Source: a bacterium | Lineage (GTDB): Bacteria; CAIJMQ01; JAADFP01 | Direction of reading: 5' to 3' | Length of the DNA stretch: 16,162 nucleotides | Assembly (NCBI GenBank): GCA_027021085.1 | Contig: JALUVB010000033.1 | Location: 1-16,162, forward strand | In this document: positions 335 to 13,919 of the stretch, piece after piece | How positions within the stretch are numbered: the first letter of the stretch is position 1 | Layout: each line of letters opens with the position of its first letter | The notes under the pieces: model-generated | Databases searched by the model: none | What the model was told of the DNA's origin: nothing | Seen by the model: the letters and a program-made list of their open reading frames with translations, nothing else | Program-made: the position numbers and the translations under genes

Positions 335-1303
335 TCAAATTTTACTTCCCAGTTCTTTCAAGGATTTTAACTGTTCTATAAAGGGTTGGGGTATCTGTCC
401 ATCTCCTGCTATGGGTACGTCCCAGGTTATTACTCCTTCCTTGCTTATAAGATCCTTGGTATAACCATAAACAAACTCAATACTAAACCTGGGCTTACCC
501 TTCCCCCACCAGGAGCCAAGATAACCCAGTATATGAAATTGTGCCCCATTAACCCATCTCCCCGGACAGACGGGGAAAGCCAGGGATATCTCCCCTGCCG
601 TATAATCTTCGTATTCGGTAAGGGATATAACCGGGACCTTCACGCCGGGATTGAAGGTAACAAGACTATCAGGATTGCCTGCCTTTGCCGCGGCGGCAAA
701 ACTCTGGAAATTCGGTGGGTTGGAATGTTGATACATCTTCTCCGCATAGTAGCAACCGTCAAACCACCAGCCATGCACATTCTTCCCCCAGCGGGTAGAC
801 CATTCACGGACAATAGCTTCCCAGTTTCTCTGGAATTCTGATAACCGTTCGTCTATTCCCTCCACTATTTTATATCCCTTCTTAAGGTTCCATATCGGGG
901 CATCCCAGGTGGGGGTGCACTTGAGCCTTTCTATTGCTGTTAAATCCCTGGAGGGAGCATGGCTGGGTAAATAGACCATGAGTTTTATCCCCAGCGGATT
1001 GAGCGCAGTATATAAATCCCGGATTAAGTCCCGCCGGGAGCACTTGCTGGGCTTGATACCTACTAAGGAATCGTAGGTTTGGTTAGGTGAACAGTAATAC
1101 CCGGAAATTTGGCCGATAGTAATAAAATAGTAAACTGCCCCCACTTCTTCTAATTGCCTTGCAAGTCTCTCTACGTCAAATTGGTTAACAATTCGGTTCC
1201 ACTCTTCCGGGGTGGTATTCTCTCCGTTAGCAACGGTTTCGGCAAGATAATGGGTAAAAACTCCCCAGCCTGCAGTTTTGAACCAATCTGTGTCTGAACG
1301 CAT
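335..1303 (-). CDS. GH29-like alpha-L-fucosidase-like protein
   Basis: A 322-aa protein resembling short members of the alpha-L-fucosidase (GH29) superfamily. The N-terminal 'DWFKTAGWGVFTHYL' (residues 6-20) corresponds to the family's 'W(F)..gkfGiF.HWG' opening. 'HGWWFDG' (177-183) carries the aspartate (D182) at the place of the GH29 nucleophile. A later 'EDYTAGE' (232-238) may contribute acidic active-site residues, but I cannot assign the acid/base. There is no signal peptide, unlike the two upstream secreted partners, so it may act in the cytoplasm on imported fragments. It is shorter than classical fucosidases (about 430-500 aa) and has no C-terminal beta-sandwich. The start is supported by GGGAGGA seven bases upstream. 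It is the last gene of the minus-strand block. Substrate is unknown; 'fucosidase' is a fold-level label. Confidence 0.7.
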   Translation of the reverse strand: MRSDTDWFKTAGWGVFTHYLAETVANGENTTPEEWNRIVNQFDVERLARQLEEVGAVYYFITIGQISGYYCSPNQTYDSLVGIKPSKCSRRDLIRDLYTALNPLGIKLMVYLPSHAPSRDLTAIERLKCTPTWDAPIWNLKKGYKIVEGIDERLSEFQRNWEAIVREWSTRWGKNVHGWWFDGCYYAEKMYQHSNPPNFQSFAAAAKAGNPDSLVTFNPGVKVPVISLTEYEDYTAGEISLAFPVCPGRWVNGAQFHILGYLGSWWGKGKPRFSIEFVYGYTKDLISKEGVITWDVPIAGDGQIPQPFIEQLKSLKELGSKI

Positions 1304-1325
1304 AATTGTTCCTCCCTGTTTTTTA

Positions 1326-1713
1326 CTATCCTTTCGCTATCTGCTCCAATTCGGCAACATTTCGCCTGAGCAAACTATGCAGCTTTATTATACAGCTCGC
1401 TACCTCCCTACGAAAATCCTGCATCTTCCCGGGATTTAACTTCTTAAATAAAAGCACCGGGTTAGTACTGCCAAACCTATTCGGGATGCTCTCTATGATT
1501 TTTATGCTCGCCTCTCGTTCCTTAACCAGTTCGGGATTATCCTTTATTCTTTCACTCTCTCTTGGTTAGTTTATCCAAGGCAGTCAAATACCTGACATCA
1601 TCTATTCCCTCTCTAGCTGCCTTCCACTGGATAGTAAGAACTACCCCTGCCCGGTAAGGATAGGTGTAACCCTCGGACCAGAAGGTCTTTTTCAGTAAAA
1701 AAATCTCATCATT
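1326..1713 (-). pseudogene. Frameshifted C-terminal remnant of a glycosidase-associated gene (DUF4091-like)
   Basis: The gap between two intact genes holds a broken coding stretch on the minus strand. One frame, entered after an in-frame TGA (1714-1716), reads 'KKTFWSEGYTYPYRAG', then 'WKAAREGIDDVRYLTALDKL', and stops at a TGA near 1568. Moving one base gives a frame that continues smoothly as 'ESERIKDNPELVKEREASIK' and on to a TAG at 1326-1328. The motif W-x-A-x-R-E-G-I-D-D-x-R-Y-L is typical of the C-terminal domain (DUF4091-like) found at the end of many secreted glycoside hydrolases. No start codon or N-terminal domain remains, so about 120 codons of a much longer gene survive. It suggests the operon once had another enzyme. 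An authentic frameshift versus a sequencing error cannot be separated here, but the missing 5' part argues for decay. Confidence 0.65.
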
Positions 1714-1735
1714 TCAATAAACCTGACTTACTAAT

Positions 1736-2596
1736 CTACTCTTTTAGAATCTCAATAGTCCATGGGTTGGAAGTGTAGGTGTTTTTTATCTTTCCCCCTA
1801 AGATATTCGCCCGGAAAATAAGCCTCCCCTGGTCCCCGACATTAACATTACTTATTCTTCCCGGCTTAATCGCTTCAATAGTTACCTCTGCTTCCCATTT
1901 CCTCCCTTCTTTGTCGCTTTTCCTAAGCTGGATGTAAGGCTCTCCATTCAGGCTCACCGGATGTAAAAGGTAGGCTGAGAGTATATCTACGGTAACATCT
2001 ATTGCTGGTTCATCCAAAAACACCTTTATCTTGAATTTATCTCCTTTCCTCAGCTTCTCCCTTGTATCTACCGTCTCCACTACAATAGCATTCTGAGGGA
2101 TCTTCACCATTTTAATCCAGTCAAAGACAAATTTGCCCCCGTGAAAATCCATCCTGAGGAAAAATAATCCTCCATCCTTGTCCCCCGGGAACCTCTGGCT
2201 ATTGAGAACATCAAAAGTCCAGATACCGGGCAGATAACTTCCTCCCATGTTTACCATTCTCCTGCCTCCTCTGCTGCCGTTTATAACCACAAGTCCTTTA
2301 TAGCCAGGGATTGGCTCAATATCCTGTATGTACATCTGGAGATAAGGATAATCCCTGCTCCACTTTACATACTGGCCTGTACTTCCATTAGTGCCCTTAA
2401 TTTTGCTAAGCGTAGTCAATCCCCCTTCCGAGTCAAATTCCACCTGCCCCGTGCGCCAACCTTCAACAGTGCTCCAGTTTTCTTCCCAGAGAGTATTTTT
2501 ATCCGGGAAGGAAACCATTTCTGCCTGACTCTGGAAAACAGTAATTCCAAATAAGAAAACTACCCCTAAAAGGCAAGTAACAACTTTCCCTTTCAT
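1736..2596 (-). CDS. Secreted beta-sandwich protein of unknown function
   Basis: I do not recognise a named family. The start is placed at the ATG at 2596, which gives 286 aa, because AGGAGGGTGG lies just upstream and the residues from there form a clean signal peptide ('MKGKVVTCLLGVVFLFGITVFQSQA', hydrophobic core, AxA-like end). An upstream ATG at 2635 would only add a polar tail inside the preceding gene. The mature protein is rich in beta-type alternation. The first half ends in 'GGKFVFDWIKMVKIP', a pattern seen at the end of carbohydrate-binding jelly rolls ('..DWI.V'). The second half ('EKLRKGDKFKIKVFLDEP' onward) looks like an Ig-like domain. No catalytic motif is visible. It starts 13 bases after the stop of the 951-aa enzyme-like gene, so the two are probably co-translated. 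A role in binding or presenting glycan is inferred. Confidence 0.7.
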   Translation of the reverse strand: MKGKVVTCLLGVVFLFGITVFQSQAEMVSFPDKNTLWEENWSTVEGWRTGQVEFDSEGGLTTLSKIKGTNGSTGQYVKWSRDYPYLQMYIQDIEPIPGYKGLVVINGSRGGRRMVNMGGSYLPGIWTFDVLNSQRFPGDKDGGLFFLRMDFHGGKFVFDWIKMVKIPQNAIVVETVDTREKLRKGDKFKIKVFLDEPAIDVTVDILSAYLLHPVSLNGEPYIQLRKSDKEGRKWEAEVTIEAIKPGRISNVNVGDQGRLIFRANILGGKIKNTYTSNPWTIEILKE

Positions 2597-2609
2597 CTTA
2601 TCCACCCTC

Positions 2610-5465
2610 CTATTTTGCATAAACTTCCCATTCATTTACCTCGGTTATCCCCCGGCTTCGGTAAACTATCAACCGGAGTTTTACGGTTTTTATCGGGTGG
2701 AAAGAAAGCGCAATTCTCGTGGGTTCCGGTCCTATAGGGTCCAACCTCTGGTTCTTAACCTTTGCCAGGACAACCCATTTCCCTTCCTCGGGATTCCACC
2801 CCTGCACCTCATAATCCAGAAGGGCAGGAGTATAGATTACTGTCCTCCCCACGGTTACTTCTCTGGGAAACAGGAGTTCCAGCCAGGCCGGGAATTTACG
2901 GGAAGTATCATACCAGCCCATTCCATCGGTGATGCCATTTACTACCCAATGCAGGTTGGCGATATCTCCTTTAGGAGGATAATTCCCTGAGGACCTGAGC
3001 ATAGTTCCATTCCCTTCATAGGCCAAGTTGCCCGGCTTCTGAAGCCTGGACCGAAAAGTTTTTATTTCTTCCTGGACTGCTCTTATGTTCTTTAATCTTG
3101 GGAATTGGGGATTAGTGGTATAAACATGGGTTGCTACATAGCCAAAACTATCAGTAAAAGCACCATCTTTTAAGGGAATAACTCTATCTTCTGAAATAAC
3201 ATACAGTTTCTTATATCTCTTCAGAAACGGCTGGCTCATCCTGACTTTTATTGTATCTGGGGAGGTATTTACGGCAATAATGTAGATATTCCCCTCATAT
3301 TCCTTCAGCCAGGTAGTAATCTCCGGTTTCTCCGGTTTTAATTTAAGTTCCTTCCCCTTCCCGGGTGAGAGGATTACCTTCTCCAGGGATTTTACCTCTT
3401 TGTGGATATAGGGGATGCCAATTCTTAAGTCCGGATATTCTCCATATTCGATAAACATGTAAGGAGTAAATCCTTTTGCGCCACAGGCAAGGGATAAAAA
3501 CCACATGGTTCTTTCTTCAATATAGGTAGGCGGCCGCCCTTTAATCTGCCCGTAGTCTCCATAGTTAAATGCCTGCAAGGTCACCCACTTGGCCTTTCTC
3601 CCTTTCCCTACCTCATCAATTGTTCTCAGAAACATTTTTATCTTGCTCATATTAGTTATTTTTTGTCCTTTCACAGGAGAAAGGTAAGGGTCTGGGTTGA
3701 GAAGGTCAGCGGCCTCTATATACTTTACTATACCGTCAGGAGTATCGTTGGTGAGATAACAGAAACGATAAGGATCAAGGGACTTTACATACTCATACTC
3801 GGCTTTGAGCCAGGAAGGATTAAAATTGCCAACCTCTGGTTCATCCGCCAGGTAATATCCAATTAGCAAAGGGTCATTCTTTAAAGAAATAACCTTTTCT
3901 CTGATAGCCTTCTTTGCTTCTTCAGAAAGCCTATCACTCTCTTTATACTCTTTTGTCCCTGGTATGAGTCTGCGAATATCCATTCCGGCAAGGTGATAAG
4001 AACCTTCTCGTCCCAGGTTTACTTCCGGGGTGAAAATATCATCCCTCTTCTTTAAGTTGCTTCTCCACCAGCCGCCATACCAGCCAATAGCCAGGAAAGG
4101 TTTCCCATTTATCAAAACATTAAGATTCTTATCTATTCTTACCTCAGTACCATTTTGCGGAGGGGGCAGAACAGAAATGAGGGTTGTTTTACCCCCGATT
4201 TTCCCTCCTTTTTTCCCGAAAAGGGAAATGCTGAGTTCATACCTCCCCGTAGGAAGGTTTTTCGCGTCGTACCTGAAAAGGATTCTTTCTTTCGGAAAAT
4301 AAACCTTTTCTACTATTTTCTTGCCTGTCATAGACACCAGCAAGATATTTGCTGAGTCAATTTTCTTTATAACTTCTTTATTTATTTTAAAAAGTGCCTC
4401 TATTGTTTTTTCTTTCTGGGTGGGATAGATACTGTTGCGGTAAAAAGGTTTTATTATATCTACATCCACCAGGTGGTACTCAGTCTTAATCTCCTGAAAA
4501 CTGCTCTTTAATAATCTCCCCTCTTTATTTTTAAGCAGAAAGACTAAATTTCTTTTACCTAATTGAGAAACAGGGAAAGAAAATCCCACCTCATTCAAGC
4601 CGTAGGTAAGATCTTTTTCTTTTTCCACAACGATTTTCCCCTTTTCGTTATCTAAAACCTCCAAATTTATTTTTTCTCTTCTTTTCTTGCTGTAAATCGG
4701 AAGGGAAAGGTAAATATTCCAGGAACTGTTTGCCGGATAAACCGAGGCCTCTGCCTCTCCAATACGAATAGATGTATAAATATTTTTGTCAAATCTTAAT
4801 CCGGTAAGCGCAGCAAACTTAGCCGGTTGATGAAAACCTCCTACCAGGGGAACGAAGGTGGAAAGCTCTGTTTTCCCACCGGAAAATCTTGCCCGGGTTA
4901 GATTGAAATACCAGTTTTTCTTTGCTCCCGTAAGGTTAAGGGAACCAAAGGGAATAGCTACTTCCGCTGACCAGAAGTTTCTACCTTTATAGACTTTTAC
5001 CTGCCAGAAAGCATTCCAGAAAGAAGTTTTTATTTTGCCACCTTCTTTCCCTAAAAGGTCAAATTGGGTGCCCAGAGTATTAAAAGCAAACTGGTAATAA
5101 TCCTGGTGCTTCCCCCAGGGATCAAGAAAAATTTCTATATCATCATCAAACCAGACAGTTCCGTCTCTGTTTGTTACTTCTGCCTTGAGTTTCCCCATAT
5201 TATCTTCATAGGCAATTATGCCAAAAAAAAGATTGTTCTTATTGTAAACAACTTTAAAAATTGTTTTCTGGAAGGGGATATTCCCGGTATTAAGCAAGAC
5301 AAGGTGATATTCAGGAGTATTCTGCCATATTTTTTCTTTTAATTGACCGTCCAGAACTATTTTATCCGCAGTAAAGCTTGCCCTGACTTCTGGAGTCTCA
5401 GCATAAAGGGCAAATTCTCCCATAAAAACCAGGGCCAAGAAAAAAAATATCATTCTTTTACTCAT
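2610..5465 (-). CDS. Secreted CBM9-like / TIM-barrel glycosidase-like protein
   Basis: 951 aa, multi-domain. Residues 1-22 are a signal peptide ending in ALYA. Residues about 25-225 match the family 9 carbohydrate-binding (CBM9-like) pattern: 'LDGQLKEKIWQNTPEY', 'VVYNKNNLFFGIIAYEDN', 'WFDDDIEIFLDPWGKHQDYYQFAFNT' and 'WSAEVAIPFGSL'. Residues about 230-435 are beta-rich linker domains. From 449 ('LNVLINGKPFLAIGWYGGWW') to about 690 lies a TIM-barrel-like region with 'DPLLIGYYLADEPE' (E542 is a candidate acid/base) and 'RTMWFLSLACGAKGFTPYMF' near the end of the barrel; the nucleophile is not clear. The last ~130 residues ('GDIANLHWVVNGITDGMGWYDTS' and '...YEVQGWNPEEGKWVVLAKV') look like an F5/8 type C (discoidin) sugar-binding domain. 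AAAGGAG precedes the ATG. It follows the pseudopilin gene by 63 bases. It probably acts outside the cytoplasm on a polysaccharide. Some relatives of this kind are catalytically uncertain. Confidence 0.75.
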   Translation of the reverse strand: MSKRMIFFFLALVFMGEFALYAETPEVRASFTADKIVLDGQLKEKIWQNTPEYHLVLLNTGNIPFQKTIFKVVYNKNNLFFGIIAYEDNMGKLKAEVTNRDGTVWFDDDIEIFLDPWGKHQDYYQFAFNTLGTQFDLLGKEGGKIKTSFWNAFWQVKVYKGRNFWSAEVAIPFGSLNLTGAKKNWYFNLTRARFSGGKTELSTFVPLVGGFHQPAKFAALTGLRFDKNIYTSIRIGEAEASVYPANSSWNIYLSLPIYSKKRREKINLEVLDNEKGKIVVEKEKDLTYGLNEVGFSFPVSQLGKRNLVFLLKNKEGRLLKSSFQEIKTEYHLVDVDIIKPFYRNSIYPTQKEKTIEALFKINKEVIKKIDSANILLVSMTGKKIVEKVYFPKERILFRYDAKNLPTGRYELSISLFGKKGGKIGGKTTLISVLPPPQNGTEVRIDKNLNVLINGKPFLAIGWYGGWWRSNLKKRDDIFTPEVNLGREGSYHLAGMDIRRLIPGTKEYKESDRLSEEAKKAIREKVISLKNDPLLIGYYLADEPEVGNFNPSWLKAEYEYVKSLDPYRFCYLTNDTPDGIVKYIEAADLLNPDPYLSPVKGQKITNMSKIKMFLRTIDEVGKGRKAKWVTLQAFNYGDYGQIKGRPPTYIEERTMWFLSLACGAKGFTPYMFIEYGEYPDLRIGIPYIHKEVKSLEKVILSPGKGKELKLKPEKPEITTWLKEYEGNIYIIAVNTSPDTIKVRMSQPFLKRYKKLYVISEDRVIPLKDGAFTDSFGYVATHVYTTNPQFPRLKNIRAVQEEIKTFRSRLQKPGNLAYEGNGTMLRSSGNYPPKGDIANLHWVVNGITDGMGWYDTSRKFPAWLELLFPREVTVGRTVIYTPALLDYEVQGWNPEEGKWVVLAKVKNQRLDPIGPEPTRIALSFHPIKTVKLRLIVYRSRGITEVNEWEVYAK

Positions 5466-5528
5466 TTCTTCGCTCCTTTTTTAAAATATGGATATGTACC
5501 GGGGCTATGCACCTCGCCCACTTTTAGT

Positions 5529-6233
5529 CTACTGTGGCCATCCCCACAGGTTAGTATAGAGCCAATCTGGATATGGCTGGTAAAGCTGCTGACTATTTCT
5601 TGCCTCTACATGCCCATCGGCAAAAGCAGCATTGGCATGGCCACTGTGACGAAAACCTACATGGCCGAGATTACCATTAACTACAAAATACCAGCCTCCG
5701 TATGGCGAATCCCCTTTACTATCAGCAAATATCAAACGGGAAGAAGGAGCTCTAATCTGAGCCTCCCTGCTATATGCAATCAAGCCACCCCAATCCTCCC
5801 CCCCAATGTTATATCGGGGCATTCCATAATGAACTTCTAATTGATAAACTAATCTCCCAGTATTACTGGGGCATTTCAGAATGCCGTTCCGATACTTCAC
5901 TGGAATAACTCCCCAAGCACCGGGTGGCATATCGGGCATATTCAGCTCTTCCCGCATGATGTAGGGCCACCACTCCTGTCCATCTCCTCCAAACCTCTGA
6001 TTGTTGCGGTAAGGGGGAATCCAGCCGTTATAGTCCTGGAGGTAGAACTGCCAGCTCAAAATAATTTGTTTCAGGTTATTTTTACACACTGTACCTCTTG
6101 CCTGCTCCCGTGCTTTCTGCAAAGCGGGGAGCAGTATAGCTGCCAATATCGCTATGATGGCTATAACTACCAGAAGCTCTATCAGGGTGAAAGCCCCTTT
6201 TACTTCCCACAACTTATGGATCTTACCCATCAT
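5529..6233 (-). CDS. Type II secretion/type IV pilin-like pseudopilin with H-X9-DG tail
   Basis: 234 aa from the ATG at 6233. That start is chosen because GGGGAGGT lies five bases upstream and the ATG overlaps the lacI stop as ATGA; a start at 6260 would bury the ribosome-binding site. The N-terminus has a short basic leader, then '[37 protein letters not shown]': a prepilin peptidase site (before AF or F), the conserved Glu and a hydrophobic helix. Near the C-terminus '[18 protein letters not shown]' fits exactly the 'H-X9-DG' prepilin-type processing-associated motif. Such proteins are present in very many copies in Lentisphaerota, Planctomycetota and related genomes, often next to regulators and glycan enzymes. 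The fold suggests secretion or surface display after cleavage; the real task of this family is not established. Its translational coupling to lacI suggests joint control. Confidence 0.88.
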
Positions 6234-7312
6234 CTCGCACCTCCCCTTTTTCCCCGGCATTCACCGGGATTAACCTTTCCCACACTCTCCCGCACAATTA
6301 ATTTTGTCCCACAGGTTATTCTCTTAAAAATGGTAGAATCTCCGTCCTCAATCCTTTTTTCCAGGAGCTCCACGCTCAACCTTCCCATCTCCTCCATGCT
6401 CTGTTCTATGGAGGACAATGTAGGAGAAATATAATGGCAGGCAATGGTATTATCAAAGCCGACTATGCTAAGTTCCTGAGGAACCTGGATTCCCAGAGAA
6501 ATAGCCACCTTGATAAGAGAAATTCCGTAAGTGTCACCCGTGGTAATCACTGCAGTGGGAGGATTAGCCGAACTTTTCCATTTCTTCAGAATCTGGTGGG
6601 CATAATTCTCTATTTCTTTAACCCCTCCTACTTTTGCAGGAGGAAGATAAACATGTTCCTCGTTTATCGGAAGGCGGTAAAACCCCAAGGCTTGATAATA
6701 TCCTTCCAATCTCTCACGAACATGTATGGAAGAAGGCGCTGCTAATCCTTCAGGAGAGATTAATGCGAAAAAACCTATCCTGCGGTGTCCCAGCTCGTAA
6801 AGGTAAGAAACCGCTTGCCTTATGCCTCCCCTGTTATCCGGCATTACCATGTCACAGATAGTATTATCCAGAGCATAGTTCAGAAGAACCACAGGGACAT
6901 AATTCAAAACCTGCATCGCTTCTTCCTCCCTCACCCCCGCCTCGAGAATCACCCCGTCAATCTTGTTGTTCCAGAGCAGGGGAGGAAGACTTTTTTCCCA
7001 GGTCTCTACGATTACGTTTTTCCCCAACTTCTTCGAGGTTTCTTCAATCCCGACAAAAAACCTGTGGTAATAGGGGTCAGAGAGGTTAATTCGGGGAGGA
7101 ATAATATAACCAATATTCCCTGTTTTTTTCCGGTTCAGCTTTTTCTTTTTGAAGTAGCCTAATTCTTTTGCCTTGGATAGAATCAGCTCCTTGGTTTCTT
7201 CAGAGACACTTAATTCCTTTTCCTTTCCGCTCAGGACAAAAGAAACCGTAGTCTGCGAAACTCCTACTTCACGGGCAATTTTACTCTGGGTTACTGAAGA
7301 TTTTGCTTTCAT
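6230..7312 (-). CDS. LacI-family transcriptional regulator
   Basis: 360 aa. The N-terminal LacI helix-turn-helix is clear: '[47 protein letters not shown]' (residues 7-53). It is followed by a periplasmic-binding-protein-like sensor: 'GNIGYIIPP', '[24 protein letters not shown]', 'RLEGYYQAL', '[37 protein letters not shown]'. A polar tail of about 20 residues follows 'LIVRES'. By family it binds an operator as a dimer and responds to a sugar or sugar derivative; the ligand cannot be read here. It heads a minus-strand block of glycan-related secreted genes, which are its likely targets along with itself. A near-consensus promoter and a palindrome lie directly upstream. Confidence 0.92.
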
Positions 7313-7401: not shown

Positions 7402-8364
7402 ATGGCAATACTTTCTCTCTCCTCTTTTTTCCTTGGTATTATCCTGTTTCCCCTTTTCGCACTTATAGGGAGAAAAATCCGCCTGGTAAGCTCTGTTCCC
7501 CTGCATGTGGGAGGAAGAGAAAATATTCCCCTTACCGGAGGCTGGGTGATATTTATTCTCTTTTCTATCTCCGCTTATCTTAGCAAGCTACCCCCTGCCA
7601 TCTTCTGGGGGGCAGCAATTATTTTTTTTGTTGGAGTATGGGATGATTTCAGGGAACTCACTCCCTTAAAGAAATTTTTACTGCAATCTATTTCTGCCCT
7701 GGTGGTAATATTTTCCGGTATTTATACCACCATAGGCTACATGCCTTTTTTCTTTAACTATGGAATAACTTTTCTCTGGATTCTGGGTATTACGAATGCT
7801 ATCAATCTTCTGGATATTATGGATGGTTTAGCCGCCGGCATTTCCCTGTTTTCCCTGGCAGGAATGGCAACAGTAGCCTACTTTAATCATAACCCTTACG
7901 TATACCATTCTTCTATTTTCCTCTTATTTATTCTCCTCTCCTTTCTGATTTTCAATTTCCCACCCGCCAGGATATTCCTGGGCAATTCAGGGAGCGGGTT
8001 GATAGGCTTCCTGCTTGCGGTTTTAGTCATTCCTTTAAGTTTTGCCCCTCCCTCCCACGAGTTAGCGCTCCTTACTCCCCTGCTCCTCCTGGGATTGCCT
8101 ATTTACGATACATTCTTTCTTGTTTATGAAAGGGGAAAAAGGGGGAAATCTTTCCATGAAAAGAGCGAGGACCATTTTGCCTTACTGCTTTTGAAAAAGG
8201 GATGGAAAAAGAGAAAAGTTTTGCTGCTTATGTATTCCTTGAGCGCCCTGCTCGCTGTTTGCGGTATCGGATTGACACGTTTGAGCAATCGTTATGCTTC
8301 TTTTGTTATTATCTTTTTGATTATTGTGCTGGTTCTGGTGGGTAAAAAGGTTTCTAAAAAATGA
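7402..8364 (+). CDS. WecA/MraY-family phosphoglycosyl transferase
   Basis: 320 aa, mostly membrane-spanning (about ten hydrophobic helices). Family members join a sugar-1-phosphate from a UDP-sugar to undecaprenyl phosphate, the first step of many cell-surface glycans. Motifs in order: 'PLTGGWVIF' (43-51), 'GVWDDFRELTPLKKFLLQ' with the DD pair at 81-82, 'TNAINLLDIMDGLAAGIS' (131-148), 'FLGNSGSGLIGF' (192-203) and the cytoplasmic loop 'KSEDHFALLLLKKG' (254-267). The last aligns with the family's His-containing loop in a KDHFALRL-like form rather than HxHH. At residue 195 the metal-binding Asp of 'F(L/M)GDxGS' is Asn, which is unusual. Not true MraY by neighbourhood (no murein genes). Its stop overlaps the next start as ATGA. 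No ribosome-binding site is visible at this ATG. Confidence 0.85.
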   Translation: MAILSLSSFFLGIILFPLFALIGRKIRLVSSVPLHVGGRENIPLTGGWVIFILFSISAYLSKLPPAIFWGAAIIFFVGVWDDFRELTPLKKFLLQSISALVVIFSGIYTTIGYMPFFFNYGITFLWILGITNAINLLDIMDGLAAGISLFSLAGMATVAYFNHNPYVYHSSIFLLFILLSFLIFNFPPARIFLGNSGSGLIGFLLAVLVIPLSFAPPSHELALLTPLLLLGLPIYDTFFLVYERGKRGKSFHEKSEDHFALLLLKKGWKKRKVLLLMYSLSALLAVCGIGLTRLSNRYASFVIIFLIIVLVLVGKKVSKK

Positions 8365-9791
8365 AACAGGTGCACATTGTGGGGGGTGGAATCACCGGTT
8401 TGAGTGTAGCCCGTTACTTAAAAAATGGCCAGGTGCATATATGGGAGAAGGAAGAGGAAGCAGGAGGGCTTTGTTCTTCCTTTAAAATCGGTGAGTTTAC
8501 TTTTGACCGCGATGCTCATTTCTTGCATTTTCGCTCTTCCCGTATAAAGGAGGAAATCCTGAAGAAAAACAAGGATATTCTCATTCCGCATAAACGTTCT
8601 TCCTGGATTTACTGGCAGGACAGGCTTATTCCCTTTCCTTTCCAGAGACATATTTCCCACCTTCCCTCCCCACTCTTTTCCAGGATTACTGCCGAATTAT
8701 TCTCCTGCTGCCAGAGGGAAGAGAAAAACGATACATACCTGGGTAAGCTACTTCTATCCAGGTACGGGACTACGCTATACAATATCTTCTTTCTTCCTTA
8801 CCTGAGCAAATTCTACAAAATCTCTCCCGAGAAGATACCGTTTGAGGAGGTGAAAGATTTCTTCCCTCTGGATAATGTCTCCCAAATTCTCAGCCGGTTG
8901 TTAAACGACCCCACACAGGCAGGAATCCCCTCTGACATATCGCCTAAGACGGGAACATTTCAGCCCGGGGTTAAAGAAAACTCTGATGCGGGTTATAACT
9001 CTCTCTTTTACTATCCTCCCGCGGGAGGGATAGGTACTTTTATGAGCAGGTGGAAGGAAGGGATAGAGAAAAGTATACAAAAAGGAAGGGTAGTAAAGAT
9101 ATACTGGGAGAAAAAAGAAATCGAGGTAGAGACAGAAGAAGTGTACCCCTCCCCTCCTGGCAGCATTCCGCGCAAAGGCATCTCTACTAAAAATTATGAT
9201 TTGCTTGTTTGCACTTTTCCCCTGCCGGAGCTATTTAAAGCTCTTCATCCTTTCCCGGCCAGATTTTTGCATCTTCTACCCTTTTTCTATGCTAACTCTA
9301 TTCTCTGTTACAATATAGGTATAAAAAGTGATAACTGGCAGGGAGTGCACTGGACATATTTTCCAGAAGAAGAATTCACCTTTTTCCGGGTGGGATTCTA
9401 CTCCCATATTGCACCACTCATGGCTCCCCCTAAATGCTCATCCATTTACGTGGAAGTAGCCCTGCATTCGCAGGACAGGGAGAGAGAAGAAGAGCTTGAG
9501 AAAAGAGTGGTGGAAGACCTCATAAAAGCAGGGATACTACGAAATAAAGGAGAAATAGAAGTAATAAGACCGATTTATATCCCTTCCGCTTATCCGCTGT
9601 TTTTGGGCAACCGGAAGGAGTTGGATGATTTCAAGCACTGGCTGCGGGAAAGGGGTATTATCCTGGCCGGGAGATACGGCACATGGAAGTACTATTCCAT
9701 GGAGGATTGCATAAAGGAAGGACAGCAAATAGGAGGGACTTTAGCAGTAGCGGGTAGTGAGGGAGGTTATGAGATACAGGCAGGGGAATAG
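8361..9791 (+). CDS. FAD-dependent amine-oxidase/UDP-galactopyranose-mutase-like protein
   Basis: 476 aa. The N-terminal Rossmann motif 'VHIVGGGITGLSVARYL' (4-20, GxGxxG) is followed by E29 for the ribose and 'EEEAGGLCSS' (31-40), the glycine pair of FAD-binding flavin oxidoreductases. 'DAHFLHFRSSRI' follows. 'GYNSLFYYPPAGGIGTFM' in the middle and 'IILAGRYGTWKYYSMEDCIKEGQQIGG' near the C-terminus match the protoporphyrinogen-oxidase/UDP-galactopyranose-mutase-like group often found in polysaccharide clusters. Members may convert UDP-galactopyranose to the furanose form or modify another nucleotide or lipid-linked sugar; the length fits, but the exact reaction cannot be told from motifs. ATGA overlap with the upstream transferase gene indicates translational coupling and a shared pathway. 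Confidence 0.8.
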   Translation: MKQVHIVGGGITGLSVARYLKNGQVHIWEKEEEAGGLCSSFKIGEFTFDRDAHFLHFRSSRIKEEILKKNKDILIPHKRSSWIYWQDRLIPFPFQRHISHLPSPLFSRITAELFSCCQREEKNDTYLGKLLLSRYGTTLYNIFFLPYLSKFYKISPEKIPFEEVKDFFPLDNVSQILSRLLNDPTQAGIPSDISPKTGTFQPGVKENSDAGYNSLFYYPPAGGIGTFMSRWKEGIEKSIQKGRVVKIYWEKKEIEVETEEVYPSPPGSIPRKGISTKNYDLLVCTFPLPELFKALHPFPARFLHLLPFFYANSILCYNIGIKSDNWQGVHWTYFPEEEFTFFRVGFYSHIAPLMAPPKCSSIYVEVALHSQDREREEELEKRVVEDLIKAGILRNKGEIEVIRPIYIPSAYPLFLGNRKELDDFKHWLRERGIILAGRYGTWKYYSMEDCIKEGQQIGGTLAVAGSEGGYEIQAGE

Positions 9792-9816: not shown

Positions 9817-9830
9817 AACTCACAACTCTT
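9817..9830. repeat. 14-base dispersed word, also at the right window end
   Basis: AACTCACAACTCTT occurs here and as its exact reverse complement at 16149-16162, upstream of rpoN. A second shortened form (aactcacaact) sits immediately upstream at 9803. Another member of the short-word repeat set in this genome. Confidence 0.6.
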
Positions 9831-10017
9831 GTACCATAGACTTTAGACGTTAGACTGGGAGAGGAGGATGCAGGATAAAAGATGCAGAACAGGGGACAGT
9901 AAGCAGGGATGATAACTCAGTGTCCTGGTTTCCTGGTAATCCTGGTTTCTCGGTTTCCTGGGAGCAAGCCTTATGGTTTCTGCGAGATTGCCGTGGGTTT
10001 TAGGATTTTAAAAAAGG

Positions 10018-10151: not shown

Positions 10152-10925
10152 ATGCTTAATAAAATACTGCTCTGGGAAGAGAGGAAGTATTTATGGGAGC
10201 TTTCCCGCAAATTTCTAAGGGATAAATACGTCGGCTCAGTACTGGGGCTCTCCTGGGCATTTATTACCCCGCTTCTACTCGCCGGGGCCATTACTGTGGT
10301 TTTTACCCGGGTGGCCAGGGTATCTCTTCCTCATTATCCCCTCCTGGTTCTCTCCGGCATTTTGCCCTGGATGTACTTTTCCGCCTCTTTAAGCGAAGGA
10401 GCTTACTCCATTTTGAATTATTCTTCCCTTCTTAAAAGATTCACCTTTTCTCCCCTGATTATTCCTCTTTCCCTCAGCGGGGCAAATTTTTTAAACCTCT
10501 TGCTCAGCATGGGAGTAATGTTGCCTATCTTTATCTTCTTTAATAAAAGCATTTTATTCCTCCTGCCCCTCCTTTTCTTCTTCCTGCTGCTTTTCTTCTT
10601 CCTATCTTCCGGTATTATGCTTACCCTGGCCTGGTCAAATGTTTTCCTGCGGGATATAGGTCACCTTACTTCCGTGGGGCTCCTTTTCTGGTTCTGGATA
10701 ACCCCTGTTTTCTACACGCTTTCTTTAGTCCCAGAGCGATTTTTATTCTACCTCTACCTAAACCCCCTCACCCCCTTTATGCGAATATTCCACGCCATCC
10801 TTTACCGGGGTATACTGCCCCGGCCATTTGATGCCTACCTGGCTTTTTTATATACTTTGGTTTTCTGGTTTATAGGGTATATAAGTTTTCTCAGGAAAAT
10901 TCCGGAAGCAAAGAAAAGAATATGA
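10152..10925 (+). CDS. ABC-2 type polysaccharide export permease (Wzm-like)
   Basis: 257 aa with an N-terminal cytoplasmic helix and about six membrane segments, the usual size for O-antigen or teichoic acid exporters. Family marks: 'FLRDKYVGSVLGLSWAFITPLL' (22-43), 'LPHYPLLVLSGILPWMYFSASLSEG' (59-83), 'NVFLRDIGHLTSVGLLFWFWITPVFY' (about 163-188) and 'NPLTPFMRIFHAILYRG' (about 205-221). It would form the channel through which a lipid-linked polysaccharide crosses the inner membrane, with the next gene as ATPase. The two overlap by ATGA, and a permease next to an ATPase with a long tail is the classic Wzm/Wzt layout. No clear ribosome-binding site precedes this ATG. Confidence 0.87.
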   Translation: MLNKILLWEERKYLWELSRKFLRDKYVGSVLGLSWAFITPLLLAGAITVVFTRVARVSLPHYPLLVLSGILPWMYFSASLSEGAYSILNYSSLLKRFTFSPLIIPLSLSGANFLNLLLSMGVMLPIFIFFNKSILFLLPLLFFFLLLFFFLSSGIMLTLAWSNVFLRDIGHLTSVGLLFWFWITPVFYTLSLVPERFLFYLYLNPLTPFMRIFHAILYRGILPRPFDAYLAFLYTLVFWFIGYISFLRKIPEAKKRI

Positions 10926-13537
10926 AAGAAATTGTTATAAAGCTAAGTAATGTAGAACTGGATTACCTTACTCCTTTTTACTTCCCGGGGAAAAAAAGAC
11001 ACTGGGAGAAAATCAAAGCACTGCAAAACATCAATGTGGAAATACAAAAAGGAGAGAGCATAGCCCTGTTAGGTGACAACGGAGCAGGAAAGAGCACCCT
11101 GCTCAAGATAATTGCCGGTCTCCTCAAGCCTGACAAAGGCAGGGTAGAAGTAAGAGGTAAGGTGCGGATACTATCCGAATTGGGGGCCGGGTTTAACGTG
11201 GAAGTCTCCGGGTGGGAAAACATCTTCATACAGGGAAGTCTCTTTGGCTTTTCCCGCCAGGAGATGGAAGAAAAAGCTAACAAGATTGCCAAGTTTGCCT
11301 CCCTGGGAAAGTATCTCTATGCCCCCCTAAAAGCCTACTCAGAAGGAATGTATGTCAGGTTAGCCTTCTCCATTGGTATCTACACAGACCCGGATATTTT
11401 CCTGGTGGACGATATCATTACTGTAGGAGACATCCATTTCCAGGAGAAATGCATTCAAAGATTAGAAAAGATGCGGGAAGAAGGAAAAACCCTGGTTATC
11501 GTCACCCATTCTCTCCCCCTGGCAGAAAGACTGTCCAGCCAGGGGATATGGTTGGAGGAGGGGAAAATAGCTTATGCAGGCCCCATTACCGAGGTAGCTA
11601 ACTCCTACCTAAAACTTTCCGGGAAAAAGGGGAAAGCATTTACCATAGAAGAGGGAAAATTAAGAATTGCATTTCAAGAGGGGAAAATATTTATCCTCTG
11701 GGATAACAACTTACTTTCTCCCTACTACGGTGGCTATACTACTATTACCAAGAATAACAATGCTGTTATCTCCCCCCTCCAGAAGTGGAAGATGGAAAAA
11801 CACAGCTCTGGTGAAATAATTGCCCGGGGAGATTTCCTGGAACTTCCTCTCTCCCAGACCTGGAAGATTAAGGTAATCAGCGAAAGAGAATGGGAATGGG
11901 AGGTAATCATGGAGCCCCGAGATAAAGTAAGGTTGGAAGAGGTGCAAACCGGGCTGCTGCTTTCCGAAGATTACAGGTTTCTCTGGAGGGGAAATAAAAA
12001 GGAAGAATTGCCTTGCTACAAAGGAAAAGAATGGAAGCCTTTCCGGGAGGAAATAGATTCTTCCCCCTTCCTCATTTCTGCCCGCTCAGGTTCATCCTAC
12101 CCTGCGGTTCTCTGGGAACCATTCCTAAAATTTGATAAGAAACAAATTTTTCTTTCCGGGGAAGAAACAGGAGGAAAAGCTTTTTACTGGGGATGGAAAG
12201 CAAAGGAATGGATACCCGGCAAGCACCTGATTTTTTCCGGCAGGATGAAACTTGTCTCACCTGCTCTTTTGCCTTTGAAACAGGCAAAAAAGGCAGAGGG
12301 AGATATTTACCGTATAGAAGAAGGACAGATTAAAATCTTCTCCGGAAAGCATGAGCTTACCGCGCCCGGGGGACTGGCACTGATATTTGAGTACCAGGGA
12401 AAACTCTACCTGCCGGATACGGGTAAAATAGCCCGCTCTTTTTCCGAACGGGAAAAAGAAATACGGTTTACCTGGGAAGACCTGCCCCTATATGCCCTTT
12501 TTCGCCTCCATGACGAGAAAGATAGTCTGCGCTGGCAAATAGAGATGATAAGCGAAGAAAAATTAGCATTAATAAATCCCCGCGTGGTTCTCAACCTTCT
12601 TCCCTGCTTTGATAAATGGTTTACCCTGCAAGAAGAAGGGAATTTCCCGGAAAATCTCCGCTGGTTTCCTCATACCCCCTCCCCTACCTCTTTTCTGGCC
12701 GTAAAGGGGAAAAACTCTCCGCTCCTCTGTTTCAGTATTGAGGAAAATGAAGATGTCTTTTCCCTTATTGAGAAAAGGAAGGAGATGATTATCCTGCAAC
12801 ATTTCAGGGGATACAGGGTCAATATAGAAAAGGGAAGAAACCTGCTCTTTAAGGGGAAAATAGCCCTGGGGGAAAAAGAGGAAGATTTTTACCAACGAAG
12901 AGAAGCAGAGAAAAAGGAAATTTTCAGAAAACTTCAGGAGCAGGGACTGAAAGCAGGAAACATTTCCTTTTTCCTGGATAGAGGAAGGGGAAGAATCTTT
13001 TACCGGGGAAGAGAAATCACCTCTTCCTGGGGTCTTTACGTAAGCATACTCACTCCAGAAGGGTGGCGGGAATCATTTAAGGGAACATGGAACGTATACC
13101 AGGAGAAAGAAGGAGAACTTGTAGCTGAAGGCAGGCACTTCTTCCTTCCCCTGCTTCAGAAATGGAGATTACGGGTGAAAGACAGGGGAATAGTATGGTC
13201 ATGGGAAGGCAAGAAAGAAGAAAAATTTAACATCAGGGAAGTGCATGCCTCCCTGATGTTAAAAGATGAATACGCAAAATACGAGATGGGGCAAAGCAGG
13301 AGCTTTCCTGAACTTGCAGAAGATTGGACAAATCTCTGGGAAGGAAAGGTAAAAAATAGTTTACGGGTGAAAGGGAGAAAAAATCTCCCCGCTGTTTCTT
13401 TTTCTGGTTCTTCCCGTAACGGCATTATCAAGAACTCGCCTTCCTCTCTCAAGGGAAGAGTATTGGAATACAGAGTGGATACAAATAAAATGAAATTCCA
13501 GGGACATATATGGATAGGAGATACTATTGATTCTTAA
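10922..13537 (+). CDS. Wzt-like polysaccharide export ATPase with a triplicated C-terminal region
   Basis: 871 aa, about twice a normal Wzt (400-470) and far more than KpsT (about 220). Residues 1-235 are the ATPase: Walker A 'GDNGAGKST' (51-59), the Wzt-type 'LSELGAGFNVEVSGWENIF' (84-102), signature 'YSEGMYVRLAFS' (139-150), Walker B 'PDIFLVDD' (157-164) and the H-loop 'IVTHS' (H196). At 164 Asp stands where the catalytic Glu is usual. Residues 242-452, 466-652 and 679-868 look like three copies of one module. Shared marks are 'G-(K/R/Q)-I-x-I/F ... G-L/G-Y', then 'LPL-x-Q-x-W' followed by 'W-x-W-E', then 'PAV/PLL' and a closing 'F-x-G-x-(I/M)-x-(I/L)'. The copies are strongly diverged and beta-rich. 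In classical Wzt a single C-terminal beta-sandwich binds the chain end of the exported polysaccharide; a similar role here is inferred, and the module is not the standard one I know. Confidence 0.85.
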   Translation: MKEIVIKLSNVELDYLTPFYFPGKKRHWEKIKALQNINVEIQKGESIALLGDNGAGKSTLLKIIAGLLKPDKGRVEVRGKVRILSELGAGFNVEVSGWENIFIQGSLFGFSRQEMEEKANKIAKFASLGKYLYAPLKAYSEGMYVRLAFSIGIYTDPDIFLVDDIITVGDIHFQEKCIQRLEKMREEGKTLVIVTHSLPLAERLSSQGIWLEEGKIAYAGPITEVANSYLKLSGKKGKAFTIEEGKLRIAFQEGKIFILWDNNLLSPYYGGYTTITKNNNAVISPLQKWKMEKHSSGEIIARGDFLELPLSQTWKIKVISEREWEWEVIMEPRDKVRLEEVQTGLLLSEDYRFLWRGNKKEELPCYKGKEWKPFREEIDSSPFLISARSGSSYPAVLWEPFLKFDKKQIFLSGEETGGKAFYWGWKAKEWIPGKHLIFSGRMKLVSPALLPLKQAKKAEGDIYRIEEGQIKIFSGKHELTAPGGLALIFEYQGKLYLPDTGKIARSFSEREKEIRFTWEDLPLYALFRLHDEKDSLRWQIEMISEEKLALINPRVVLNLLPCFDKWFTLQEEGNFPENLRWFPHTPSPTSFLAVKGKNSPLLCFSIEENEDVFSLIEKRKEMIILQHFRGYRVNIEKGRNLLFKGKIALGEKEEDFYQRREAEKKEIFRKLQEQGLKAGNISFFLDRGRGRIFYRGREITSSWGLYVSILTPEGWRESFKGTWNVYQEKEGELVAEGRHFFLPLLQKWRLRVKDRGIVWSWEGKKEEKFNIREVHASLMLKDEYAKYEMGQSRSFPELAEDWTNLWEGKVKNSLRVKGRKNLPAVSFSGSSRNGIIKNSPSSLKGRVLEYRVDTNKMKFQGHIWIGDTIDS
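13226..13263. repeat. Perfect 14-bp inverted repeat inside the ATPase gene
   Basis: TTTAACATCAGGGA and TCCCTGATGTTAAA flank a 10-base loop. The arms are perfect and lie in frame within the third C-terminal module, encoding 'FNIREVHASLMLK'. In RNA this would be a strong hairpin about 275 bases before the stop codon. No U-tract follows. Confidence 0.85.
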
Positions 13538-13538
13538 A

Positions 13539-13649
13539 GCCATGAACGACTTTTAAGGTTGACTGTCCAGAAAATGCCCTACCCGTTCTCCCGACGGATA
13601 TGGGGGGAAAGCAGGCAGGAAACTACGATTACCCGGAAACCAGGATACC
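13539..13649 (+). repeat. ~110-bp dispersed repeat, right copy
   Basis: It begins with GCCAT two bases after the stop of the ATPase gene, continues with ACTTTTAAGGTT and ends with ACCAGGATACC. It is the inverted counterpart of 210-318 (65 of 68 identical in the distal part by eye). It has TGCC/GGCA and CTCCC/GGGGG complementary stretches, so it may fold. There is no poly-U tract to make it a normal terminator. Confidence 0.85.
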
Positions 13650-13714
13650 AATTCACCATTCACTGTCTTCCTGTCTATAGTCTAAAGTCTATGGTCTAAG
13701 GTCTAAAATCCTGG

Positions 13715-13734
13715 ATGCCTGCTTTCGCAGGCAT
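13715..13734. repeat. 20-bp palindromic hairpin repeat, copy 2
   Basis: ATGCCTGC-TTTC-GCAGGCAT, perfect 8-bp arms; same flanks (TGG before, GAC after) as the copy at 126-145. Confidence 0.85.
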
Positions 13735-13776
13735 GACATGTGGGCTGGTTTTTCTCCTTTTTGCTTCTCTCTTGTC

Positions 13777-13796
13777 ATTCCCGCGAAAGCGGGAAT
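13777..13796. repeat. 20-bp palindromic hairpin repeat, copy 3
   Basis: ATTCCCGC-GAAA-GCGGGAAT, perfect arms, inverted relative to copies 1 and 2 (GTC before, CCA after). It fits the pattern ATTCCC-N8-GGGAAT, which is the form of the neisserial dRS3 repeat; that is a resemblance in form and not evidence of kinship. Confidence 0.85.
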
Positions 13797-13919
13797 CCAT
13801 ATTCCTCTCCAAGAAACCAGGACTACCAAGATACCAGCCCCTGCTCACTATTTACTGCTCACTGTTTACTGCTTCCCCAGTCTAACGTCTATAGTCTTTC
13901 CTGCCCCCCTCGCCACTAT

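Follow-up and report, generated by a model that had tools for sequence, protein, structure and literature searches.

Wzm/Wzt O-antigen exporters such as those of E. coli O9a, Klebsiella O12 and Aquifex aeolicus carry a C-terminal Wzt_C domain. This classical carbohydrate-binding domain (CBD) is fused behind the nucleotide-binding domain (NBD), where it binds completed chains by their cap, approves them for export and modulates ATPase activity (PMC9445017). The CBD of A. aeolicus Wzt is a dimeric β-sandwich that binds 3-O-methyl mannose (PMC9445017), and systems that terminate their chains export only the terminated ones (PMC11231755).

Here, we describe a window, the whole 16,162-nucleotide stretch of bacterial DNA that was analysed, which encodes an 871-residue Wzt-like protein. 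The locus resembles the Wzt_C exporters in its Wzm partner, its Wzt-type NBD, the fusion of an extra domain immediately after the NBD and its glycan gene neighbourhood. The module found in that position, however, has no Wzt_C match, has the predicted fold of a supersandwich where Wzt_C has a jelly roll, and occurs in one to three copies. Wzt-linked carbohydrate-binding modules (CBMs) have reportedly been surveyed by Mann, Kimber and Whitfield (Glycobiology, 2019), and that survey may already include tandem or otherwise unusual C-termini of Wzt. We propose that the C-terminal modules probably act as non-catalytic cytoplasmic substrate readers of a Wzm/Wzt exporter and that their ligand is probably a glycan that radical-SAM enzymes make or modify.

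A Wzt-like ATPase in a glycan gene neighbourhood

The genes and ATPase features relevant to export are as follows.

7402-8364, + strand: WecA-like polyprenyl-phosphate sugar-1-phosphate transferase (Glycos_transf_4; PF00953, E 1e-32)
8361-9791, + strand: FAD-dependent amine-oxidase-like protein, upstream of wzm in 3/3 family genomes
10152-10925, + strand: Wzm-like ABC-2 permease (PF01061 ABC2_membrane, 29 bits, cut-off 26.9)
10922-13537, + strand: 871-aa Wzt-like protein, N-terminal ABC ATPase followed by three modules
10922-11629, + strand: Wzt-like ABC ATPase domain, residues 1-236 (PF00005, from sequence)
11072-11098, + strand: Walker A motif GDNGAGKST of the Wzt-like ATPase (from sequence)

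A Pfam profile search of the 871-aa protein places the PF00005 match at residues 34-164 (E 2e-19), and the NCBIfam models closest to the ATPase domain are Wzt/RfbE (5.5e-55) and TagH (1e-44), both scoring below their equivalog cut-offs. The permease matches galactan_ABC_perm (6e-7), likewise below the cut-off, and the end of its gene shares 4 bases with the start of the Wzt gene. A Wzt/TagH-related ATPase thus adjoins a Wzm-type ABC-2 permease, the composition of a Wzm/Wzt exporter, and the WecA-like transferase and glycosyltransferase neighbours suggest that, in a Wzm/Wzt-type exporter of a lipid-linked glycan, this protein forms the ATPase half. The two closest genomes keep the order transferase, FAD protein, Wzm and Wzt. 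One is G001, also represented by L011, a MAG with the label Caldisericota, and the other is G002; their Wzt C-terminal parts are 80% and 34% identical to the window's protein, respectively.

Within FLVDDIITVGD (window 11399-11431, residues 160-170), an Asp takes the place of the catalytic Glu right after the Walker B Asp. This residue is found in the window's Wzt and both orthologs, whereas module-bearing Wzts of other phyla have DE at this site; the substitution could possibly slow the ATPase.

Elsewhere in the window, a reverse-strand cluster (335-7312) with LacI regulator, prepilin-like, CBM9-domain and alpha-L-fucosidase-like proteins looks like a separate glycan-degradation locus. The intergenic regions hold a 90-nt inverted pair of 90% identity (196-285 and 13574-13663), a 26-nt direct pair around the palindrome CCTGCTTTCGCAGG (123-148 and 13712-13737) and shorter inverted pairs (9828-9873 and 13666-13897). 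These are dispersed mosaic repeats, and the open reading frames called within them are probably not genes.

Three homologous modules behind the ATPase

The sequence-only reading of the window had proposed three related β-rich blocks in the C-terminal part of the protein. We delimited them with the full profile of the module.

11642-12259, + strand: module block A, residues 241-446 (other-phyla profile E 2.1e-22; mutarotase-like supersandwich model)
12296-12874, + strand: module block B, residues 459-651, more diverged than A and C (other-phyla profile E 1.6e-12)
12875-12943, + strand: B-C linker, charged, its start helical in the model
12944-13516, + strand: module block C, residues 675-865, in which the signature is most complete (other-phyla profile E 1e-30)

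An independent profile, built from 72 modules of other phyla only and containing no sequence from the window's family, matches the 871-aa protein three times, at residues 241-360, 464-648 and 676-855, with the E-values listed above. The real protein reaches 227 bits with this profile, whereas 2000 residue-shuffled C-termini reach 7.1 bits at best. When three-ortholog alignments are compared profile to profile, the internal repeats are also detected, significantly for A and C (E 3e-10) and modestly for A and B (3e-4) and for B and C (2e-4). The previously drawn borders (242-452, 466-652 and 679-868) agree with ours within 7 residues, and the motifs quoted with them are found in the alignment. 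That the protein carries three homologous modules of ~190-205 residues is therefore well supported. The 630-residue C-terminal part has no match in Pfam, NCBIfam or PDB sequences, and no known PDB sequence relative was found.

The family signature is largely aromatic, and these residues may in part belong to the fold core. In block C it comprises W723, W748, Y784, F795, W802, N838 and R846. Block A keeps W289, W314, Y351 and W371 and has L411 and K419 at the N and R positions, while block B, with I503, F527, F563 and W581, has replaced the two most conserved tryptophans of the family (I503, F527) and lost the signature N and R (I623). Both N and R are thus kept in block C only, with several of the aromatics remaining in A and the fewest signature residues in B. 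Since these residues differ among the blocks, neither the multivalent binding suggested earlier nor equality of the three readers finds support; the sequences would agree just as well with blocks that divide the work or with a single reader plus spacers.

The latter arrangement, in which block C is the sole reader and blocks A and B are diverged spacers (a ruler) or dimer stabilisers, is a version of the substrate-reader proposal and compatible with it. We consider it a tentative possibility: the substitutions in A and B agree with it, as does the other-phyla profile, which scores C highest and B lowest, but A and B are no less constrained than C. Comparing G000 and G001, two species of the genus, dN/dS is 0.11 for A, 0.12 for B and 0.14 for C, with 0.06 for the ATPase, and all three blocks are under purifying selection. 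A and B moreover each form a conserved clade of their own (see below).

Predicted fold of the modules

The AlphaFold model of block C has a pLDDT of 96.7 and a pTM of 0.92 and contains 17 strands and no helices. For A and B modelled together the pLDDT is 86, block A ranging from about 73 to 98 by ten-residue blocks, and the strand order of block B resembles that of A and C. This prediction used an alignment of A+B; in the alignments of the 871-aa protein (A4) and of a 639-aa stretch (A3), single modules accumulated on block C, and both were dropped for that reason. All three blocks are modelled as all-β, in line with the original β-rich description.

Foldseek matches block C to an aldose-1-epimerase (3nre, 8e-6), then to glucoamylase, GH38 and rhamnogalacturonan lyase. 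With VIA, the same block aligns with the 3bga supersandwich (Z 17.3, r.m.s.d. 2.8, 182/195 residues) and with mutarotases at Z of about 16, block A aligns with 3nre (Z 18.5, r.m.s.d. 2.8, 203 residues aligned), and block B aligns with the N-terminal domain of 9ju0 (Z 14.7, 188 residues aligned, one row only). The supersandwich covers most of each domain in the three predicted models. Blocks A and C are clearly galactose-mutarotase-like supersandwiches as modelled, and block B is assigned to this fold with less support, an outcome that answers the call for a fold search made with the initial description. A viral structure library gave no match to the module at E 1e-3.

The modules compare with the galactose-mutarotase-like superfamily (GalM, YeaD; the supersandwich domains of GH2, GH38 and GH97; rhamnogalacturonan lyases) at Z of about 14-18 with most of the domain aligned. 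They differ from its members in their 4-13% identity, their compact size of 190-205 residues, the absence of a conserved catalytic His pair and their fusion to a cytoplasmic ABC ATPase. The possible link to Wzt_C raised in the sequence-only reading found no sequence support, and the predicted fold is a mutarotase-like supersandwich. Searches with Wzt_C (PF14524) gave no profile match in the window's own genome, in the 630-aa C-terminal part or in 70 modules (E up to 1), and the best 50 structural matches listed are supersandwiches, with the Wzt CBD absent among them, a list too short to speak against a jelly-roll fold with a swapped C-terminal strand.

Distribution and evolution

The module is not confined to this protein but occurs in one-, two- and three-copy versions in several phyla and in a radical-SAM enzyme. 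It lies behind a Wzm/Wzt ATPase in at least five lineages, and every module examined is C-terminal to a Wzt-like ATPase, with the sole exception of the copy inside the radical-SAM protein. With the first profile it was detected in 10/386 sampled genomes, compared with 74/290 for Wzt_C, so that it is not widespread. By phylum, it is present as one copy in 4/4 genomes for G048, in 5/8 for G083, in 1/5 for G039 (one copy) and in 58/68 for G282, nearly all with two copies; three-module Wzts occur in the window's family and in G391, from another phylum. No module was found on plasmids by tblastn, nor in viral contigs by a pattern scan that reaches close relatives only.

When 51 modules are placed in a tree, the sequences of the three genomes fall into one clade per block (bootstrap 100, 98 and 97), so the triplication predates the window's family, and A, B and C are separate ancient lineages. 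In the three-module Wzt of G391, A and B are sisters, so this triplication is a separate event, with the caveat that this A is a long branch; triplication arose at least twice.

Two further arrangements were observed. A single Wzm is followed in the G083 phylum by two distinct module-bearing Wzts, one with two modules (the second partly matched) and the other with one (L016 9708-12957, - strand; L112 6977-10190, + strand), which suggests a heterodimeric exporter. In two phyla, proteins of 661-801 aa with an unassigned N-terminal half lie beside module-bearing Wzts.

L122 4849-7254: C-terminal GT2 protein
L124 11126-13504: C-terminal GT2 protein
L015 225-2210: C-terminal GT2 protein

A link to radical-SAM enzymes

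In the window's family, a giant protein has the module after a B12-radical-SAM domain and before two radical-SAM/SPASM units.

L018 758-5353: giant module-bearing radical-SAM gene
L013 6619-11136: giant module-bearing radical-SAM gene
L019, partial (window's genome): giant module-bearing radical-SAM gene

The gene lies directly downstream of Wzt in G002, whereas G001 and the window's genome have it on a contig separate from Wzt. Its copies of the module have lost the two most conserved tryptophans. This partner belongs to the domain family of the HpnJ/AprD4/BchE-type B12-radical-SAM enzymes and matches the HpnJ model TIGR03471 at E 3.5e-78, with 264 and 275 bits, short of the cut-off of 577.6; unlike the HpnJ type, it is fused to the module and to two SPASM radical-SAM units. 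Adjoining the giant gene on L013 is a gene (2133-6626, - strand) for a 1497-aa protein with three tandem B12-radical-SAM units, and directly downstream of the giant gene in G001 lies a probable SAM methyltransferase (L018 1-776, - strand; N-terminal sequence judged by eye).

Radical-SAM genes recur in other phyla. A gene for a 443-aa radical-SAM protein is found within the 1.5-kb flank of 20/29 two-module loci of the G282 phylum, a radical-SAM gene 51% identical to it adjoins Wzt in G039, and HpnJ-like B12-radical-SAM genes, which belong in one family with the N-terminal part of the giant protein (44-48% identity), lie in the same cluster as Wzt in the G048 and G083 phyla. By motif, a clear radical-SAM neighbour is present at 1/30 Wzt_C loci. 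Either of the two radical-SAM families occurs in 9/10 module genomes versus 20/351 others (Fisher p 4e-10, a value that ignores kinship among non-independent genomes and uses E-value cut-offs chosen after seeing the data). At 18 loci with these radical-SAM families, from genomes that lack the module, a search at E up to 1 revealed no divergent copy of it, and no Wzm/Wzt pair lay alongside, the one Wzt-type neighbour being a weak ATPase match, which indicates that both families also have other uses.

That the module is common to both proteins suggests that the radical-SAM enzyme and the exporter meet the same glycan, and its presence in a radical-SAM enzyme suggests that the exporter may read an unusual sugar modification before release. 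A partial parallel is the Klebsiella O7 terminator ORF6-O7, a terminating enzyme with a predicted fused CBM; it is a methyltransferase-kinase with an immunoglobulin-like CBM and not a radical-SAM enzyme, and sharing of this module with its Wzt is not reported (PMC11231755). Our literature search found no paper joining Wzt, radical SAM and polysaccharide export.

A module common to Wzt and a radical-SAM protein is also what homotypic docking would predict. The modules could then associate with one another or with a protein partner (the radical-SAM enzyme, Wzm or glycosyltransferases) and so build a synthesis-export complex, and both the copy number, ranging from 1 to 3, and the largely hydrophobic or aromatic nature of the most conserved residues are compatible with this. 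We nevertheless find docking unlikely, as most organisms with a module-bearing Wzt show no second module protein in the genomes searched and the fold is typical of carbohydrate-active proteins.

Function of the modules

The mutarotase-like fold serves many enzymes, so catalysis by the modules is possible. The columns of the 70-module alignment contain neither the conserved catalytic His pair and Glu of galactose mutarotase nor any invariant Asp or Glu; the best His column holds His in 42/70 modules and Lys in block C. Binding is favoured as the more likely activity because no such His pair or invariant acid was found. That the modules are enzymes (an epimerase, lyase or similar) editing the glycan during export thus appears very improbable, despite the aldose epimerases, glycoside hydrolases and polysaccharide lyases among the best structural matches, several of these hydrolases using the supersandwich as an accessory domain.

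Recognition of a glycan by the modules, as put forward from the sequence alone, remains the best explanation, given their place behind the NBD, their sugar-enzyme fold and their linkage to glycosyltransferases and radical-SAM enzymes, although the predicted fold is not the Wzt_C sandwich. Because the module sits in the same place as the classical CBD, the same job is the simplest reading by analogy. As cytoplasmic substrate readers, the modules would occupy the position of the jelly-roll cap-binding domain, and we infer that they bind glycan and gate export. Block C, and perhaps A, would bind the end of the finished glycan, and the diverged block B would have a structural role or another ligand. 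Once bound, the chain would be presented to the Wzm channel and its recognition coupled to ATP turnover, as in A. aeolicus Wzt. Two observations point to a sugar that radical-SAM enzymes make or modify as the probable ligand: the module is built into such an enzyme, and radical-SAM genes recur beside module-bearing Wzts.

A bolder and rather doubtful extension is that these loci represent a separate type of capped-glycan export. Its radical-SAM terminators or modifiers would share a homologous mutarotase-fold reader with the exporter, so that one mark would be recognised twice, on its formation and on export of the chain. With six modules per transporter dimer, the three-module version would then read several features of one chain.

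Quality control in the export of surface glycans is known from a few prototypes with a jelly-roll cap reader. The module described here is a domain family absent from Pfam and NCBIfam and, if it is indeed a second, structurally unrelated reader present in several phyla, exporter readers would have been recruited more than once, and the radical-SAM enzymes named above become candidates for unknown glycan chemistry.
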